Source of the DNA: a virus
Reading direction: 5' to 3' (one strand)
Virus record (IMG/VR): IMGVR_UViG_3300031841_002574
Span: 1-29,211 of that record
Length of the DNA stretch: 29,211 nt
The notes under the pieces are model-generated. The model saw only the letters and a program-made list of their open reading frames with translations, was not told the origin of the DNA and did no database searches. Positions 15,178 to 27,635 of this stretch are shown here, piece by piece. A program made the position numbers and the translations under genes. The number at the start of each line of letters is the position of its first letter. Within the stretch, counting starts at the first letter, position 1.

Positions 15178-16539
15178 ATGGCGGTAATTAATAATCTAAC
15201 AGATACTTTTACAGGGGGCACAACTCAGGTTGCAATCAAGATGAATGTTACCGACACGTCCTCAGCGTCGGATTCAGAGTTGATTGCCTTACAGGTTGGC
15301 AGCACTGACCAATTTACAGTGCGTAAAGATGGGCAGGGATACTTTGCGTCGAATTTGGGTGTAAATACGACATCCCCAGCACAAAAAATTCACGCTGCTA
15401 ATGCTGGGACAACTTATGTAAGAGCAGAAAATACAACGACAGGCGTTATCTCAGACTTTGGAACAAACTCTACTGGGACAGCCATATTAAATAGGTCGGA
15501 TGACCCTATTTTATTTTACACCAATACAACTGAGCGTATGCGTCTTGACTCGACGGGGCTGGGCATCGGAACTGACTCACCCGCTACAATAACAGCTGGA
15601 ATTACGGCTCTATCCATAAGTGACTCTGGCGGTAAAACCACAGGCGATAAAATAGGCGAGTTAAACTTTATTACCAATGATGGCTCGTTTACTGGCACAT
15701 ATTCAGACGGCATAGGCGCGGCAATCAATGCTGTGTCAACCTCTGGAACTGGGGCAGCTTATGGTCTGACATTTACTACGGCGACCACCACAGGCTCGAA
15801 CAGGGCAGAGCGTTTGAGGATAACCGAAACTGGACTGATAGGCATCGGAGTCTCGAGTCCTAATAGAACTTTATCGGTAAACTCAGGCACAATCGATGTC
15901 GTGGCACAATTCGAAAGCTCAGATAGCGGTGCATATATAGCCTTAAAAGATGACTCTACCAGCAGTGCCACTGCCGTTATGATTGGTGCGATTGCCGATG
16001 ATATGCGTTTTGATGCGGGTGATATTGAACGCATGAGAATATTAAGCGGTGGTGGTCTTGTTATAGGTAAAACAGCCGACAATACTACAGATGATGGACA
16101 CGTTTTAGGTGATGCGGGATATTTATATACTACCCGAAACGGCAATATTTGCCATGTGTTAAATCGTAAGGGGACTGAAGGGGACATTGTCCAATATCGT
16201 AATGACAACGTAACAGTAGGAAGCGTTAGTATTGCGGCAAGCAGCACCTCTTACAATACCTCATCCGATGCGAGATTAAAGCACGACATTGTAGATGCTC
16301 CAGAGGCATCTGACCTAATCGACGGCATACAAGTTCGCAGCTTTAAGTGGAACATAGACGATAGCGAGCAACGCTATGGTATGGTTGCTCAAGAGCTAGT
16401 GGAAGTCGCACCCGAAGCGGTTACTGGAGAGCCTGAAGGCGACGAGATGATGGCAGTGGACTATAGCAAGTTGGTGCCAATGTTGGTAAAAGAAGTTCAA
16501 TCCTTAAGAAAACGTGTTGCAGAGCTGGAAGGAAACTAA
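15178..16539 (+). CDS. Tail fibre with C-terminal S74 intramolecular chaperone
   Basis: A 453-residue fibre protein. Motifs such as GVNTTSPAQKIHAA, GIGTDSPA and GIGVSSPNRTL are the beta-strand repeats often found in trimeric fibres. The C-terminal 91 residues are a peptidase S74 chaperone: SSDARLKHDI at 362-371, RYGMVAQEL and a final VQSLRKRVAELE coiled coil. In this family the chaperone cuts itself off just before the catalytic serine, here probably Ser363, after the trimer folds. This is a likely host-range determinant. It begins seven bases after the J-like gene. Confidence 0.92.
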   Translation: MAVINNLTDTFTGGTTQVAIKMNVTDTSSASDSELIALQVGSTDQFTVRKDGQGYFASNLGVNTTSPAQKIHAANAGTTYVRAENTTTGVISDFGTNSTGTAILNRSDDPILFYTNTTERMRLDSTGLGIGTDSPATITAGITALSISDSGGKTTGDKIGELNFITNDGSFTGTYSDGIGAAINAVSTSGTGAAYGLTFTTATTTGSNRAERLRITETGLIGIGVSSPNRTLSVNSGTIDVVAQFESSDSGAYIALKDDSTSSATAVMIGAIADDMRFDAGDIERMRILSGGGLVIGKTADNTTDDGHVLGDAGYLYTTRNGNICHVLNRKGTEGDIVQYRNDNVTVGSVSIAASSTSYNTSSDARLKHDIVDAPEASDLIDGIQVRSFKWNIDDSEQRYGMVAQELVEVAPEAVTGEPEGDEMMAVDYSKLVPMLVKEVQSLRKRVAELEGN

Positions 16540-19661: not shown

Positions 19662-19678
19662 AAGCAAGACTCCAAGTA

Positions 19679-19719
19679 GGGGGCTAGGCTAAGGGAATGG
19701 AGGAAAGGACCTAGCCCCC
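19679..19719. repeat. Perfect 10-bp inverted repeat in divergent leader
   Basis: GGGGGCTAGG at 19679-19688 is repeated inverted as CCTAGCCCCC at 19710-19719, with a 21-base purine-rich loop. It lies just before the ribosome site of the minus-strand gene. There is no T run, so it is not a standard terminator in either direction. It may be a leader structure or attenuator. Confidence 0.6.
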
Positions 19720-19725
19720 AGAGAA

Positions 19726-19739
19726 CGCGCCTTAGCGCG
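19726..19739. repeat. Short GC hairpin CGCGC-CTTA-GCGCG
   Basis: A perfect 5-bp stem with a four-base loop, seven bases beyond the larger inverted repeat. The two together may form a tandem leader structure. No T run follows. Confidence 0.5.
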
Positions 19740-19773
19740 GATTCGCTGTCGATTGTGTAGCATTACAAAAACA

Positions 19774-19794
19774 AATGATAAATTGCAAATCATT
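19774..19794. promoter_or_regulatory. Candidate operator/promoter region between divergent genes
   Basis: AATGAT and ATCATT form a dyad with a nine-base spacer in an AT-rich stretch between the minus-strand gene and the HTH gene. A TTGCAA at 19783-19788 is itself a palindrome and could be a -35 for either direction. I cannot assign -10 boxes with confidence. The HTH protein next door is the natural candidate binder. Confidence 0.35.
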
Positions 19795-19855
19795 ACTTGT
19801 TTTAAAGAAAAATGTGTGCAACTTAACAATATCGCATGATTTGATAGGACATAAA

Positions 19856-20035
19856 ATGGAAGCACTAAGCCCATCGGAAATTGAGATGAGAGCGGCAATG
19901 GCTGGGTTAGCCATGGCTGAGATATTTAGGAGGTCGGGAGTTTCCCCAAGTTCTTTTCACCGTGCAAAGAGGGGTGAGGGTGATATGCGCCCGGTCACCA
20001 TATTTAAGCTTATGAAAGCAATAGAAGGGAATTGA
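19856..20035 (+). CDS. Small helix-turn-helix regulator (Cro-like)
   Basis: 59 residues from ATG 19856 with AGGAC upstream; an in-frame ATG at 19775 would run through the operator-like region and is less likely. AMAEIFRRSGVSPSSFHRAKRGEGDMRPVTIFKLMKAIEG is a plausible helix-turn-helix (about 17-55). It is the first gene of the rightward early operon and directly precedes the recombination genes. It probably controls early transcription. Confidence 0.7.
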   Translation: MEALSPSEIEMRAAMAGLAMAEIFRRSGVSPSSFHRAKRGEGDMRPVTIFKLMKAIEGN

Positions 20036-21821: not shown

Positions 21822-22168
21822 GACCTGAAACGGTCATACAGCGACAAATTAAAGATTATTTAGAGGTGCTGGGGTTTTATGCCGTCCATGTACCTAATGG
21901 GGTTGTATTGGGCGGTAATGCCCGGCAGAGAGCAATTCAAATGGCTGCTCTAAAAAGGGACGGCTTCAAAGTAGGCTTCCCTGATTTAATCGTATATCAT
22001 ACCAACGGCAGGGTTGCGCACATTGAGGTAAAGACTCCGACCGGGAGGCAATCAGATAAACAGAAGGAATGTCAGGCCGCCTTGGAGGGTCTGGGTCACC
22101 TTTACGTTATTTGTCGCTCAGTTGAGGACGTGGAGGCGGCATTTCGTGAGTGGCAGTGGATTAATTAA
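21818..22168 (+). CDS. VRR-NUC domain nuclease
   Basis: 116 residues, a stand-alone VRR-NUC domain. VGFPDLIVY with Asp56, HIEVKTPTGRQS with Glu70 and Lys72, and QRQIKDYLEVLGFYAVHVPNG at the start are the standard blocks of this PD-(D/E)XK family. Such small phage enzymes are proposed to cut branched DNA during replication or recombination. GTG start, overlapping the previous stop (GTGA). Confidence 0.92.
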   Translation: MRPETVIQRQIKDYLEVLGFYAVHVPNGVVLGGNARQRAIQMAALKRDGFKVGFPDLIVYHTNGRVAHIEVKTPTGRQSDKQKECQAALEGLGHLYVICRSVEDVEAAFREWQWIN

Positions 22169-22634
22169 GACCTTTGCGGACGGGTCAACGATTGAGTTTG
22201 ACCAAGGCAATTTTGATGGTTGGTGCGTTTACCTAAATAAACCCGATGGGAGCAGATATGCACCCACAGACAAATATTATTTCTACATCATACGTAAACT
22301 AGCAGAACGGCATGGTAGCGGCTTACTATGGGACTTGTTCTATAGGATGTACCGCAAAACCACCAAAGAAATAGACCCGGTTATATTGGATGGCATAACA
22401 ACCTTTGCGGACAAGGTGGCTCCGCATTCCATACAATGTGACATAGCTTTTACCTGCGTCTATTTAGGTATGATTGCAGAGAATAACAAGGAGAGGACTA
22501 AGCTTGGCTCAGACATAAAGTTTATTGCCATGTATCAATTGCTAATAAAGAATATGCCAGTTGATGAGGTCGTGAATTGGTCGAGAGGTAAAGGCTGGCA
22601 TGAGCTCAGAACATATTTCGAGAAAATATTCTAA
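22146..22634 (+). CDS. Unknown phage protein (DUF7004-like)
   Basis: 162 residues from GTG 22146, ten bases after GGAGG, overlapping the nuclease gene by 23 bases. KTFADGSTIEFDQGNFDGWCVYLNKPDGSRYAPTD... resembles a family of uncharacterised proteins with the same opening that I tentatively link to DUF7004. The rest is helical and ends in WSRGKGWHELRTYFEKIF. I can state no function. It is the last gene before the small-gene cassettes. Confidence 0.7.
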   Translation: MSGSGLIKTFADGSTIEFDQGNFDGWCVYLNKPDGSRYAPTDKYYFYIIRKLAERHGSGLLWDLFYRMYRKTTKEIDPVILDGITTFADKVAPHSIQCDIAFTCVYLGMIAENNKERTKLGSDIKFIAMYQLLIKNMPVDEVVNWSRGKGWHELRTYFEKIF

Positions 22635-22645
22635 TACGCTTGACC

Positions 22646-22665
22646 GTAACGGCAGAATGCGTTAC
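22646..22665. promoter_or_regulatory. Dyad GTAACG-N8-CGTTAC, copy 1
   Basis: A perfect 6-bp dyad with an eight-base spacer, alone in an intergenic gap, 34 bases before the next ATG. The same hexamers with the same spacer recur at 23713-23732, 35 bases before another ATG. The 20-bp size suits a dimeric DNA-binding protein; an RNA hairpin is also possible. Confidence 0.65.
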
Positions 22666-22699
22666 TTACGAATCATCAACAAGAGGAAAGGAAAATAAA

Positions 22700-22969
22700 A
22701 TGAACATCACTCACTTTGAACAGCAAGCTCTCAACGCAATTTCGACAGATTGCTTCTTGGAGGGCGCGGAGGGCACTGAAGCTGTAGGAATAGAGCTTTG
22801 GGCTGACTGCGCTGCAGAACACATTCTAGATAACACAGACATCACAAAATCTCAGCTCTCTGGTGTTGTTTCTTCGCTTATTAAAAAAGGTTTACTCAAC
22901 TTTCATGGAGCTGGGCGGGACTCTGGTTGGTCACTTACTGAAGAAGGCGCTAAGGCGATTTGGGGATAA
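22700..22969 (+). CDS. Small winged-helix-like protein
   Basis: 89 residues from ATG 22700 after the repeated leader AGGAAAGGAAAATAA. ITKSQLSGVVSSLIKKGLLNFHGAGRDSGWSLTEEGAKAIW resembles the recognition helix and wing of a winged-helix protein (about 48-88). It may be a small regulator, but the family is not recognised. It is preceded by a GTAACG-N8-CGTTAC dyad and followed by a TTCG hairpin. Confidence 0.7.
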   Translation: MNITHFEQQALNAISTDCFLEGAEGTEAVGIELWADCAAEHILDNTDITKSQLSGVVSSLIKKGLLNFHGAGRDSGWSLTEEGAKAIWG

Positions 22970-22976
22970 CACTAAC

Positions 22977-22990
22977 GGGGCTTCGGCCCC
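22977..22990 (+). terminator. GGGGC-TTCG-GCCCC hairpin (cassette boundary)
   Basis: A 5-bp GC stem with a TTCG tetraloop, seven bases after a stop codon. It is followed by CACC, not T residues. The same element recurs at 23263 and 24141. It probably marks or protects an mRNA 3' end more than it stops transcription. Confidence 0.5.
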
Positions 22991-23016
22991 CACCAATAAG
23001 AGGAAAGGAAAATAAT

Positions 23017-23256
23017 ATGAGAACAATGGAAATGATTTGGGCAGATGACAATATGACTGGACACAACCCCTGCGCAGTTTGCGGAAGGGAAATGAAGGGA
23101 GGCAACCACTATGCAGTCCACGTTATAGATGGCGGCGATAACATCCTTCATCCCGAGGATGAGGACGAATATATTGACGATGGCGGCGATATGTATTGGC
23201 ATCCAGTCGGCCCTGAATGCAGGAAGAAGTTTGGAACGTTTGCCGTAAAGAACTAA
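23017..23256 (+). CDS. Small cysteine-containing protein, possible zinc binder
   Basis: 79 residues from ATG 23017, behind a second exact copy of the leader AAGAGGAAAGGAAAATAA. NPCAVCGREMKGG (Cys-x2-Cys), a conserved-looking HYAVHVIDGG and VGPECRKKF give three cysteines plus histidines, a likely small metal site seen in other short phage proteins of this style. A strongly acidic stretch lies between. The function is unknown. Confidence 0.7.
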   Translation: MRTMEMIWADDNMTGHNPCAVCGREMKGGNHYAVHVIDGGDNILHPEDEDEYIDDGGDMYWHPVGPECRKKFGTFAVKN

Positions 23257-23262
23257 CACATA

Positions 23263-23278
23263 GGGGGCTTCGGCCCCC
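23263..23278 (+). terminator. GGGGGC-TTCG-GCCCCC hairpin (cassette boundary)
   Basis: A 6-bp GC stem with a TTCG loop six bases after a stop codon, followed by CACC and then the next ribosome site. Same form and same position in its cassette as the hairpin at 22977. Confidence 0.5.
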
Positions 23279-23298
23279 ACCTTACTCGGAGATACGAA

Positions 23299-23529
23299 AT
23301 GAGAGCAATTAATCTAAAAGAAATACCTCCAGTCCCAGAGGGTGCTATGGGATGGCGTAGAAGTTTACGCAGAGGGTCAATATATCACGCTCATTCAATG
23401 GGGCATCCTATTTGTGGCTCTTCTGTTTATCTCGACAGAAATAAGTCTGAAGAACTAGAGAGCCTTGGAGATATGCACTACTGGGGAGTTTGTTCTAGGT
23501 GTTTTAACAAAAGCAAAAATGCCAGATAA
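23299..23529 (+). CDS. Small protein of unknown function
   Basis: 76 residues with CGGAG before the ATG. It is basic, with HPICGSSVYLD and YWGVCSRCFNK giving a CxxC plus an upstream Cys and His residues, so a metal site is possible. It lies between two cassettes and overlaps the next small gene by eleven bases. Confidence 0.6.
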   Translation: MRAINLKEIPPVPEGAMGWRRSLRRGSIYHAHSMGHPICGSSVYLDRNKSEELESLGDMHYWGVCSRCFNKSKNAR

Positions 23530-23686
23530 CAAAGGACGCAAACCACCCCACGAGTACGTAGATATAAAGTTACGCAACGGCTGGGTGGTCAGGAATACCG
23601 AGAGCATCAAGTGGCGATGGAAGCCGTGGCCGGAGGGTGATAGTCCCGGCGATATCGTGCAATGGCAGAAGGCAAAGGGCAGTTAA
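23519..23686 (+). CDS. Small tryptophan-rich protein, unknown
   Basis: 55 residues from ATG 23519, overlapping the previous gene. YVDIKLRNGWVVRNTESIKWRWKPWPEGDSPGDIVQW looks like a small beta fold. Similar short proteins with KWRW..WP..G.. motifs appear in many phages. The function is unknown. There is no strong ribosome site, so it probably depends on coupling. Confidence 0.6.
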   Translation: MPDNKGRKPPHEYVDIKLRNGWVVRNTESIKWRWKPWPEGDSPGDIVQWQKAKGS

Positions 23687-23712
23687 AAATAATTTTCACA
23701 AGGGGGTTGCAA

Positions 23713-23732
23713 GTAACGATGAGTAGCGTTAC
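23713..23732. promoter_or_regulatory. Dyad GTAACG-N8-CGTTAC, copy 2
   Basis: An exact repeat of the hexamers and spacing at 22646, with an unrelated spacer sequence. It lies in the 81-base gap before the next cassette gene. A changing spacer with constant half-sites points to a protein-binding dyad or a structured RNA, and not to simple duplication. Confidence 0.65.
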
Positions 23733-23767: not shown

Positions 23768-24133
23768 ATGCGAGATGAAATATCAGGTGGCAACCCATTT
23801 GTTAGACAATCAAACCCCTCTAAAGGTTTGCAGTTTGTGTACGGTAAAGCTGCCAGCGAAAAACACGCTAAGAAAATCGACAGATTTGTTGAATTGCTGA
23901 TTAGGCGTAAAATGCGCTTGGGCGGCCCTGAACAGGAAGTGAAATCTTTGGAAGTCAAAAGTAAAGGGAAATACACTTATTTTCAGTTAACAGTAGGAGA
24001 CAAGGACTCGCATATTGGAAAGTTAAGAAATGTTCTTATCGGCCCTCGTGGAGGCTGGAGACTTCTTAATGCTGCAACGAAAAAGCATAGCCGAGGCCGC
24101 TATAACTGCCTCTCGGCTTTGACAAAATACTAA
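23768..24133 (+). CDS. Basic protein of unknown function
   Basis: 121 residues behind a third version of the purine-rich leader (AAGGAAAGGAAAACAAA). It is highly basic, with helical ASEKHAKKIDRFVELLIRRKMRLGG and a later GPRGGWRLLNAATKKHSRGRYN, so nucleic acid binding is plausible. No family is recognised. A GTAACG-N8-CGTTAC dyad precedes it and a TTCG hairpin follows. Confidence 0.65.
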   Translation: MRDEISGGNPFVRQSNPSKGLQFVYGKAASEKHAKKIDRFVELLIRRKMRLGGPEQEVKSLEVKSKGKYTYFQLTVGDKDSHIGKLRNVLIGPRGGWRLLNAATKKHSRGRYNCLSALTKY

Positions 24134-24140
24134 GAACAAT

Positions 24141-24155
24141 GGGGCCTTCGGCCCC
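24141..24155 (+). terminator. GGGGCC-TTC-GGCCCC hairpin (cassette boundary)
   Basis: A 6-bp GC stem with a tight loop just after a stop codon, again followed by CACC and a ribosome site. Third member of the early-region hairpin set, differing by a base insertion in the loop-side stem. Confidence 0.5.
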
Positions 24156-24176
24156 CACCAACTTGGAGGATATGAT

Positions 24177-25234: not shown

Positions 25235-25399
25235 ATGAAAAAGACAATTATAGTTGGGGTAAGTATGGTTGCAGTTGGTTATTGCGTTTGGACGATAGCC
25301 AGAAACAAAAACATAATACTCAACCCTTTTGGAGAGTTAGAGATTGACTGGAATGGCGGTGACCTTTTCGGAATGGGGGTTGTAGACGATGACAAGTAA
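25235..25399 (+). CDS. 54-residue membrane-anchored protein
   Basis: Starts after AGGAT and overlaps the replication gene by eleven bases. Basic residues, then a hydrophobic span (TIIVGVSMVAVGYCVWTIA, about 4-22), then a polar C-terminus predict an inner-membrane peptide with a single pass. The function is unknown. Confidence 0.6.
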   Translation: MKKTIIVGVSMVAVGYCVWTIARNKNIILNPFGELEIDWNGGDLFGMGVVDDDK

Positions 25400-26057
25400 A
25401 ATGCCGTGGTTCCGCTTATACCACCGCATCATTGACGATGATAAACTGAGACTTTTAGCCTTTGAGGACCGTTGGCACTTTGTCGCTCTATGTTGCCTAA
25501 AATGTGAGGGGCTACTTGATGAAGAGGACGATGAGCTGACCCGGCGTAAGGTCTCAGTGAAGCTTGGTGTAGATACGAGAGAGCTTGAGGAAATATCCCG
25601 GCGATTACGTGAGGTAGGATTACTTGATGAGGGCTTAAATCCGAGAGCTTGGGATGACCTACAGTTTGTTAGTGATGACGCTGCAAAGCGGATGAGAGAG
25701 TATCGGAAACGTAAGAAAAAGAAGGTGCGTGCGTCACCGTTACGTAACGGTCACGTAACAGTTACGGCCCAAGATAAAGATAAAGATAAAGATAAAGAGA
25801 AGGGAAGCAGCAATTACTTTTTTAGTGGTTCCACAATTCAATTGAATGAGAAAGACTTTAAAACGTGGAAAAAGAGCTATCATGGGATAAGCGATTTAGA
25901 GGCGGAGTTGCAGACGATTGATAATTGGTGGCAAGGTCAGGATGAGGCTAAACCTAAGAATTGGTTTTATCGCACTAGCCAAATGTTGAATAAGCGACAT
26001 CAAGAGCGGCTGGGTGATAAGAAAGCAAAAGGGGGTGAGGCATGGCCGATTTGTTAG
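25389..26057 (+). CDS. Phage replication initiator-like protein (O/DnaT-like)
   Basis: 222 residues. WFRLYHRIIDDDKLRLLAFEDRWHFVALCCLKCEG...LGVDTRELEEISRRLREVGLLDEG (about 7-80) is a winged-helix type start common in phage replisome organisers. A basic linker follows (YRKRKKKK), then DKDKDKDKEKG encoded by tandem GATAAA repeats. A C-terminal helical domain (ELQTIDNWWQGQ...KPKNWFYRTSQMLNKRH) may contact the helicase. It lies directly before primase and helicase genes. A dyad cluster and AT-rich repeats within its gene resemble a lambda-type origin. Confidence 0.75.
   Translation: MTSKMPWFRLYHRIIDDDKLRLLAFEDRWHFVALCCLKCEGLLDEEDDELTRRKVSVKLGVDTRELEEISRRLREVGLLDEGLNPRAWDDLQFVSDDAAKRMREYRKRKKKKVRASPLRNGHVTVTAQDKDKDKDKEKGSSNYFFSGSTIQLNEKDFKTWKKSYHGISDLEAELQTIDNWWQGQDEAKPKNWFYRTSQMLNKRHQERLGDKKAKGGEAWPIC
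25737..25796 (+). other. Candidate replication origin within initiator gene
   Basis: CCGTTACGTAACGG (25737-25750) is a perfect 14-bp palindrome. ACGTAAC occurs at 25742 and again 11 bases later at 25753, and GTTAC follows at 25761, giving four half-sites in 27 bases. Four GATAAA units (25773-25796) adjoin. Iterons next to an AT-rich run inside the initiator gene is the lambda ori plan. Function is inferred. Confidence 0.45.
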
Positions 26058-26434
26058 TTGAGTTCCCAAGACGGGCAGGCAAACACATTTGCCCTAGTTG
26101 TGGACCGACTAGAAGAAATAAGCAGGATAAAAGTTTAAGTGTAACAGCAGATAAAAGCGGTTGGGTTTGTTTTTGCCATAACTGCGGAGCAAGGGGTTTT
26201 GACAATGGGATTGCACCAAAGACACAAGGAATGGATAAAGGCGAGAGGGTTGGACCCAGCATTAGCAGAAGCGCTAGGGCTGGTAACAAAACAAGAAGCA
26301 GGGGGGAACTGGCTAGTAATTCCCTACTTGGAAAACGGCCAAGCAATAAATCACAAATACAGACTGACCAAAGAGAAGCGGCACCGCATGGACGCAGACG
26401 CTCCGCTAGCTTTGTGGAACGTCGACTCACTTAA
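26042..26434 (+). CDS. Primase zinc-binding domain protein, overlapping helicase gene in another frame
   Basis: The first 52 residues are a primase-type zinc domain: HICPSCG (Cys17, Cys20) and FCHNCGARGF (Cys45, Cys48), with KSLSVTADKSGWVC between. In T7 gp4-like enzymes this domain is joined to the TOPRIM/helicase part. Here the helicase continues in the +1 frame from about 26199, while this frame stays open for another 78 codons of Arg/Ser-rich sequence that looks non-functional. So it is either a separate small protein with an overlapping tail, a frameshifted fusion, or an assembly indel. It overlaps the replication gene by 16 bases with a strong GGGGGTGAGG site. Confidence 0.75.
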   Translation: MADLLVEFPRRAGKHICPSCGPTRRNKQDKSLSVTADKSGWVCFCHNCGARGFDNGIAPKTQGMDKGERVGPSISRSARAGNKTRSRGELASNSLLGKRPSNKSQIQTDQREAAPHGRRRSASFVERRLT

Positions 26435-27635
26435 AGAGGTAGCGGTAAAGGAAGGTAAGGCACCCCTAGTAATTTGTGAGGGGGAATGGGACGCACTGGC
26501 AGTAATACAAGCTGGGCATCCTTACGCCGTGAGCGTTCCTAATGGAGCCCCTTCATCTGCTACCGCTGATGTGGAGACAGCCAAGCGGTACGACTGGGTA
26601 GATAGACACGCTGACGCTTTAGCTGGGGTCAGGCAGTTCATATTAGCAACCGATGGTGATGAAGCAGGGCAGCATTTGAGGGCTGACTTGGTAGCACTGT
26701 TGGGGGCGGACCGTTGCAGCTTTTGCGAATATCCCGAAGGCTGCAAAGACTTAAACGAGGTACTGCAACAATACGGTCAGGAAGCAGTCGTAAAGTGTAT
26801 AACCACGGCCAAACCTTACCCAGTTAAAGGATTATATCGGCTAGACGATTTCCCAGAAAAAGGAGAGGTACGCAGTTATGACACGGGAATTGCCAGCCTA
26901 GACGAGCTCATGCAAATTGTTCCCGGAACTTTAACCGTGTTCACGGGTTACGCAAACATGGGCAAATCAACGCTTATGAATGTGTTGATGGCTAGAGCCC
27001 TAACCCACCATTTCCCAGTTTGTATTGCCAGCTTTGAGACTGACGTTAAGCCTATTCTGATGAATGGGTTGATGAGTTCTATATTGAATTGCCCACCGCA
27101 TGAAATCGCGAGACATCCTAAATATAAGACGGCTGAGGGTGTTTTAAATGATGAACTAACAATTATTAGTCAGGCGGTTGAAGAGGACTCTGAGATGGAC
27201 CTTGAGGAGTTCCTTAACCTTTGCCGGGTGGCAGTCGTTCGGCATGGTGCTAAAATGATTGTGCTAGACCCTTGGAATGAGCTCGAGCATAAACGCCGGC
27301 GGGATGAAACAGAAACAGAATATATTGGACGGGCAATCAGAGCAATTAAACGATTTGCTAAACAATACGATGTTGCCTTTTGGATTGTTGCTCACCCGAC
27401 AAAACCACAAGAGGGTAAAAGCAAGGTGCCCGGCTTATATGACATCAGCGGAAGTGCTAACTGGGCAAACAAGGCAGATTATGGCTTAGTATATCACCGG
27501 GGCGTAATAGATGGGGTCCCTGATAATGTTGCACAAGTAATAGTCACAAAAGTTAGAATGGGGTTGCCCGGCAATAAGGGAATGATAAAACTTGCCTATG
27601 ATACAAGTACAAGCACATTCATTGAGTATTTCTAA
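26205..27635 (+). CDS. TOPRIM primase-helicase (T7 gp4/Twinkle-like)
   Basis: 476 residues from ATG 26205, eight bases after AAGGGG; a TTG at 26199 is an alternative. TOPRIM residues are Glu92 in ICEGEWDALA and Asp150/Asp152 in LATDGDEAG, with VSVPNGAP at 109-116 typical of these enzymes. A RecA-type helicase follows, with Walker A GYANMGKST (about 248-256) and Walker B-like MIVLDPWNE near 345. It should unwind the fork and, together with the zinc domain, make RNA primers. The N-terminal zinc domain is encoded in a different, overlapping frame. Confidence 0.9.
   Translation: MGLHQRHKEWIKARGLDPALAEALGLVTKQEAGGNWLVIPYLENGQAINHKYRLTKEKRHRMDADAPLALWNVDSLKEVAVKEGKAPLVICEGEWDALAVIQAGHPYAVSVPNGAPSSATADVETAKRYDWVDRHADALAGVRQFILATDGDEAGQHLRADLVALLGADRCSFCEYPEGCKDLNEVLQQYGQEAVVKCITTAKPYPVKGLYRLDDFPEKGEVRSYDTGIASLDELMQIVPGTLTVFTGYANMGKSTLMNVLMARALTHHFPVCIASFETDVKPILMNGLMSSILNCPPHEIARHPKYKTAEGVLNDELTIISQAVEEDSEMDLEEFLNLCRVAVVRHGAKMIVLDPWNELEHKRRRDETETEYIGRAIRAIKRFAKQYDVAFWIVAHPTKPQEGKSKVPGLYDISGSANWANKADYGLVYHRGVIDGVPDNVAQVIVTKVRMGLPGNKGMIKLAYDTSTSTFIEYF

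Follow-up and report, generated by a model that had tools for sequence, protein, structure and literature searches.

RepA of pPS10, pi of R6K and RepE of F are each a single winged-helix initiator with related boxes at the origin and at operators, and each is autoregulated. The iterons of lambda O are not known to serve as operators of other genes. Each iteron, located inside O, is an inverted repeat of 19 bp, and O proteins exist as dimers (PMC7466680); for Rep of pSK639, an autoregulatory role was suggested from the position of its boxes (PMC5703833). In the papers searched, GTAACG/CGTTAC sites are not described for any phage.

The DNA analyzed here (the window) is a linear virus contig of 29,211 bp from IMG/VR, a marine, roseophage-like virus record. 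Its terminase is 58–61% identical to those of the Roseobacter phages CRP-406, CRP-811, CRP-821, CRP-822, CRP-823, and CRP-831, which have been described as a family-level CRP-822-type group (PMC12629253). The replication module has other affinities than the terminase, and relatives of its primase-helicase, with up to 70% identity, belong to an unrelated set of phages. The primase-helicase gene (26199–27635, + strand, annotated from a TTG at 26199; phrog_239, E 2e-83; Toprim and DnaB_C) was used as the query to collect relatives. We recognized no repressor or integrase gene in the window. At the left end, bases 35–67 are an exact match to the Illumina TruSeq adapter on the reverse strand (33 of 33 bases), so that the record as far as about base 67 stems from library preparation and not from the phage.

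A scan of the whole window showed exactly two exact copies of GTAACG-N8-CGTTAC, at 22646–22665 (dyad 1, spacer GCAGAATG) and at 23713–23732 (dyad 2, spacer ATGAGTAG), neither with an assigned strand. The unit is a 20-bp mirror image with two half-sites of six bases and a spacer of eight. Both copies are intergenic, at gene leaders and outside coding sequence. The gap to the following ATG is 34 bases for dyad 1 (ATG at 22700) and 35 bases for dyad 2 (ATG at 23768), and each ATG has a purine-rich Shine-Dalgarno/ribosome-binding site. No third copy with fewer than two mismatches is present in the window; the next best, at 16210, has two mismatches and lies within a gene. An earlier model-made reading of the same DNA (the sequence-only reading) had reported the two copies, their different spacers, a distance of about 34 bases to the ATG and the lack of a third copy with this spacing, all of which our measurements confirm. 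What it had not reported is a TTGNNN hexamer directly 5′ of both dyads: the −35-like TTGACC at 22640–22645 (+ strand) abuts dyad 1, and TTGCAA at 23707–23712 (+ strand) abuts dyad 2. A generic sigma-70 scan called no promoter at either dyad, TTGACC included, and the −10 elements nearby are poor (TACTTA and TACAAG).

The hexamer alone is not over-represented in the window (13 found, 9.2 expected). In order-2 Markov simulations, a repeated 6+6 dyad with a spacer of 8 was seen in 0.75% of the simulated windows, and one with any spacer from 3 to 15 in 11%. A repeated dyad with both copies fully intergenic was obtained in 0 of 400 simulations, because only 2.8% of the 20-mers of the window are intergenic according to a gene set that was assigned by hand. 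The pair by itself is only suggestive; the pair together with its position is not due to chance.

Behind dyad 1, the gene at 22700–22969 (+ strand; phrog_25342, E 1e-5) encodes an 89-aa protein that is predicted to adopt a MecI/BlaI/MarR-like winged-helix fold, a point also absent from the sequence-only reading, and is a candidate regulator. Its Pfam matches (MarR_2/DUF7343) are all below the cut-off. The AlphaFold2 model, built from one sequence, has a pLDDT of 75 with an HTH and a two-strand wing, and Foldseek relates it to MecI/BlaI (TM about 0.6, E about 0.07–0.15). The Serratia phages MTx, Hera, and WR01 encode the same domain as the N-terminal part of a protein of 344 aa; we saw no exact dyad in the stretches fetched from these phages. 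Behind dyad 2, the gene at 23768–24133 (+ strand) encodes a 121-aa orphan to which homology searches assigned no family. The gene directly upstream of dyad 1 (22122–22634) encodes a strong DUF7004 member (Pfam E 6e-45). No relative of the genes at 22122, 22700, and 23768 was found in the searched viral contigs, and the dyad gene region is not kept in 80 primase-helicase relatives, 80 terminase relatives or the 5 CRP roseophage genomes examined. The same gene string contains near-identical GGGGC-TTCG-GCCCCC hairpins at 22977–22991, 23263–23278, and 24141–24156. They are located directly after stop codons and ahead of the next ribosome-binding site, with no T-run on the + strand, and most small-gene junctions of the dyad region carry either a hairpin or a dyad.

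The half-sites of the dyads occur again in an O-like replication-initiator gene (25389–26057, + strand; phrog_17247 and phrog_3926, "replication initiation protein"), which holds four GTAAC/GTTAC boxes in 27 bp. The two hexamers are indeed back to back (CGTTACGTAACG) at 25738–25749, where the sequence-only reading had placed a candidate origin, and the cluster, which has no assigned strand, extends as CGTTACGTAACG-GTCAC-GTAAC-A-GTTAC to 25765. None of these boxes is in the N8 arrangement. Directly after them comes a purine-rich, AT-rich repeat, (GATAAA)n, at about 25771–25805 (+ strand), which is what one would expect next to an origin of the lambda type; at this place, (GAGACA)n is found in relatives. 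Two hallmarks of lambda-type origins are seen in the window, namely repeated boxes within the initiator gene and an AT- and purine-rich stretch alongside. The layout GTAACG-N5-GTAAC-GTTAC is found in four relatives (L011, L041, L056, and L061), and that of the window, GTAACG-N5-GTAAC-A-GTTAC, corresponds to the L011 layout with one extra base. Judging from sequence and layout, 25738–25765 is a probable origin inside the O-like gene.

We use the term O-like for position and architecture only. The lambda O family is absent from the Pfam matches of the protein, which also showed no sequence match to RepA_N/Rep-type initiators. The product is predicted to consist of a winged-helix N-terminal domain, a basic helix, a disordered linker and a C-terminal domain, with residues 10–90 modeled by AlphaFold2 at a pLDDT of about 90; the linker corresponds to the region of the origin boxes. 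In Foldseek searches with the N-terminal domain, the plasmid initiators 4pql, 5kbj, and 4pta were among the best six matches, although weakly (E 0.09–0.25). The protein aligns at 20–31% identity with both initiator subfamilies that are encoded upstream of the same helicase.

Among the relatives, the gene before the primase-helicase is usually initiator-like, and its boxes differ with the initiator subfamily. Counting sequences, some of which are so closely related (L056/L061) that the independent events are fewer than six and nine, and with subfamilies assigned by hand, GTAACGTTAC is present in 6/8 members of the subfamily starting SRWFRHYAGM and in 0/9 of the subfamily starting WFRxYxExLDDPKVQ, while GAAACGTTTC is present in 0/8 and 9/9, respectively. 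Several of the GTAACGTTAC boxes are preceded by GTAACG-N5. Outside initiator genes, 1,053 kb contained GTAACGTTAC 0 times and GAAACGTTTC only twice. The boxes occur in all three reading frames and the change between them is symmetric in both half-sites, which indicates a constraint at the DNA level that follows the initiator type. In the full records of phages with GTAAC origin boxes (e.g., G013–G016), no such dyad lies outside the origin, so that a regulatory use is not general among these initiators. For the sister box, GAAACG, nine phages likewise gave no noteworthy dyads beyond the origin.

Other initiator genes have repeats of their own. Those of L012, L022, L040, L064, L006, and L008 contain repeated heptamers of the GGGACA, GGGGCAA, and GCGTTCC types, which could serve to predict further origins. 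A helix-turn-helix, initiator-like gene of L158 carries four tandem AGTTCA-N5-TGAACT palindromes (2025–2113), probably another origin within an initiator gene with a different box. Tandem 18-bp repeats of the ACGCGTCGCCGGAGACCC type are found at L069:4000–4240.

Three further phage contigs carry the dyad. When 2.9 million viral contigs were scanned for TTGNNN followed by the dyad, 42 had a hit. Nearly all of these hits fall within long open frames and were put down to chance, and only L186 and L195 were accepted; the hits in L170 and L192 were rejected as they look coding, and L202 is a possible further case of the dyad leader. In L186 and L195, the arrangement TTGAC[C/T]-dyad-AAGGGGTCATCAA-RBS-ATG precedes a 76-aa gene, and 29 bases separate the dyad from the ATG. 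The TTGACC of the window occupies the same position as their TTGAC[C/T], and the bases downstream share TCATCAA (dyad 1) and AAGGGGT (directly after dyad 2) with both contigs. The genes concerned form a two-gene cassette encoding 76 aa and 52 aa, without known family (L186:191–579, − strand; L195:2131–2519, + strand), which is antisense to the structural genes and common to two phages whose terminases differ. Apart from L195, no contig gave a homologue of the L186 cassette protein. By their structural genes, L186 is closest to L015, L041, and L038, and L195 to L017 and L078. All five were found by the primase-helicase of the window, and since they carry this same gene, the L186 and L195 dyads are in phages of the replication type of the window. 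Both contigs end without their replication region. The first gene of L186 sits 0.7 kb behind the helicase in L015, and the L186 replication genes would therefore adjoin, beyond the contig end.

The third contig, L247, came from a second scan in which the TTG requirement was dropped. It has three exact N8 dyads (at 1220, 1298, and 2591) in 1.4 kb, compared to 0.03 expected. Two of them lie within 110 bp before an O-like initiator gene and one lies about 38 bp before the GTG of another small gene; a fourth dyad, with an N7 spacer, is inside the linker of the initiator gene. A-tracts are present in two of the L247 spacers. No sequence similarity was detectable between the O-like proteins of L247 and of the window, and in phages with a weak match to the L247 initiator (nd4 and a fecal contig) no arm was common to the upstream region and the gene. 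Since the dyad itself was the query that led to L186, L195, and L247, independent support comes only from what else they show: the additional copies in L247, the context of the start codon, and the group of phages to which L186 and L195 belong. The phages that carry the dyad are of unlike base composition (46% vs. about 61% G+C).

Most likely, given their sequence and placement, the dyads are docking sites for a phage DNA-binding protein that controls both small genes. The sequence-only reading had suggested such a protein for the internal cassettes and perhaps for replication. This suggestion finds partial support: the dyad stands before small genes in unrelated phage contigs as well, the hexamer is part of a probable origin whose layout is common to relatives, and no host regulon of such sites was seen. 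Its proposal that the HTH proteins encoded at 19856 and 24579 are the binders did not find support. By tblastn, neither matched any of the 80 primase-helicase relatives, and the 24579 protein had no match in phage records either; the upstream region of the 19856 gene itself has no dyad. The O-like initiator (25389–26057) and the winged-helix protein at 22700 are better candidates.

We consider it a serious possibility, a little short of an even chance, that the O-like initiator, with its predicted winged helix, binds the dyads as operators too. This reading is based on the identity of the dyad half-site with the half-site of the origin boxes. The geometry of a dimer also fits, because the 19-bp inverted repeat of the lambda O iteron, recognized by a protein that exists as dimers, is nearly of the size of the dyad. 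In its favor we also count the intergenic placement of both sites, the copies in L247, L186, and L195, the pairing of box type with initiator type, the predicted winged helix, and the lack of a host regulon. Against it speak the phages that have GTAAC origin boxes but no dyad elsewhere, the origin boxes of the window outside the N8 arrangement, the dissimilar O-like protein of L247, the L186 and L195 contigs that end before their replication region, the weak plasmid-initiator matches, and the poor −10 elements with no called promoter. We infer one protein at both kinds of site, promoters in front of the cassettes, and the sign of the effect. The dyads would be 20-bp inverted-repeat operators for a dimeric phage-encoded protein, one at the promoter of each of the two small early-gene cassettes, and the likeliest binder would be the O-like initiator, since GTAACG/CGTTAC half-sites also make up its own probable origin. 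With rising amounts of the initiator, the origin boxes would become occupied and replication would start; the solitary dyads would be filled as well. With the dyads directly behind the −35-like TTGACC and TTGCAA, occupancy would most simply repress the cassettes, and their expression would be tied to the onset of replication. More tentatively, the initiator may moonlight in transcription and control separate cassettes of small genes by way of solitary dimer sites of the origin type. In phages of this initiator group, replication onset would then set the timing of accessory expression, and a cassette would join the system by carrying the box.

The alternative that survives best, although we regard it as unlikely, is a dedicated phage regulator. 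The best candidate would be the 22700–22969 winged helix, acting as a repressor both on its own gene and on the second cassette; the 24579 HTH protein is a weaker one. The model of the 22700 product is a small winged helix that resembles the MecI/BlaI/MarR repressors, a gene directly behind its operator is the classic layout of autoregulation, and several relatives (L070, L074, and L020) have cI/Cro-type operators at the same place behind TTGAC. However, these operators have spacers of 3–5 and not 8, and searches for a homologue of the 22700 protein gave no hit in the viral contigs and none in L247, L186, and L195, though these three carry the dyad. The match between dyad arm and origin box would also have to be a coincidence, which we estimate at roughly 0.2% for a 5-mer.

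Less probable still, the dyads could be the control regions of mobile, moron-like small-gene cassettes that bring their promoter along between phages and are served by a regulator common to many phages of these hosts, with the likeness to the origin being secondary. In favor of this, two different phages have the TTGAC-dyad-leader in front of the same 76-aa/52-aa pair, which in both is antisense to the neighboring structural genes. In L247, however, the dyads flank the initiator gene itself and not a cassette, and the cassettes of the window are co-directional with their neighbors and share no protein with the L186/L195 cassette.

We give little credence to the idea that the dyads act in RNA, each as a 5′-leader hairpin with a 6-bp stem and an 8-nt loop that serves translation, processing or stability. 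Both leaders do fold to exactly this hairpin (−7.1 and −6.3 kcal/mol), and GGGGC-TTCG-GCCCC hairpins stand at other junctions of the same gene string, but the z-scores of the leaders are modest (−0.7 and −1.8). Moreover, the stem letters are constant across phages without covariation, the same letters are found in the origin in other arrangements, and the dyad would not be transcribed if TTGACC is a −35 element.

Sites of a host transcription factor used by phages would explain the same site in phages of unlike base composition, yet we rejected this very improbable idea: 398 Pseudomonadota genomes hold 28 sites in total, never more than 2 in one genome and fewer than for the reversed control pattern, and all 30 hits of a genome-wide TTGACN-dyad scan look coding or random, so that neither search gave a regulon. 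A coincidence of two dyads, the least probable reading of all, was rejected as well: any repeated 6+6 dyad is frequent enough in simulated windows, but not the intergenic pair, and chance leaves the matched ATG distance, the arm shared with the origin box and the recurrence in L247, L186, and L195 unaccounted for.

If the O-like initiator is the binder, replication initiation would be directly linked to the transcription control of accessory genes in little-studied phages from marine and other environments, and both the origin and the regulated genes could be recognized by a short box that is easy to search for (GTAACG, with GAAACG as its counterpart in the sister group). Even with another binder, the boxes that differ between subfamilies point to probable origins in phages without a culture and yield predictions of initiator specificity.

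Compared to known systems, the dyads resemble cI/Cro operators in being inverted repeats directly behind a −35-like TTGAC, as in L070, L020, and L074. They differ in their spacer (8 vs. 3–5) and in not being clustered at a divergent promoter: neither dyad has a divergent gene pair, and the divergent region of the window (19668–19855) has no dyad. Among the relatives, L048 (4257–4976), L057 (6539–7275), L046 (4382–5085), and L026 (4732–5275) have pairs of inverted repeats, spaced by about 33–35 bp, that border a gap of about 0.5–0.7 kb on one side or on both. This arrangement is typical of cI/Cro immunity regions, and most of these phages have arms of their own. With phage morons, the small genes share a leader of their own and, in L186 and L195, the antisense orientation to structural genes; the genes of the window are instead co-directional, without a clear promoter-terminator unit. 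With the lambda origin, several features are shared. The boxes lie inside the initiator gene, a purine-rich, AT-rich stretch adjoins them, and an inverted-repeat unit of about 20 bp (19 bp in lambda) suits a dimeric initiator; the initiator family and the box sequence are different, and the window has in addition two solitary dimer-type sites at gene leaders. In the autoregulating plasmid Rep systems, the operator controls rep, whereas the dyads of the window precede other small genes, and those of L247 the initiator gene; what the proposed system would share with them is its logic, one winged-helix initiator acting at the origin and at operators.
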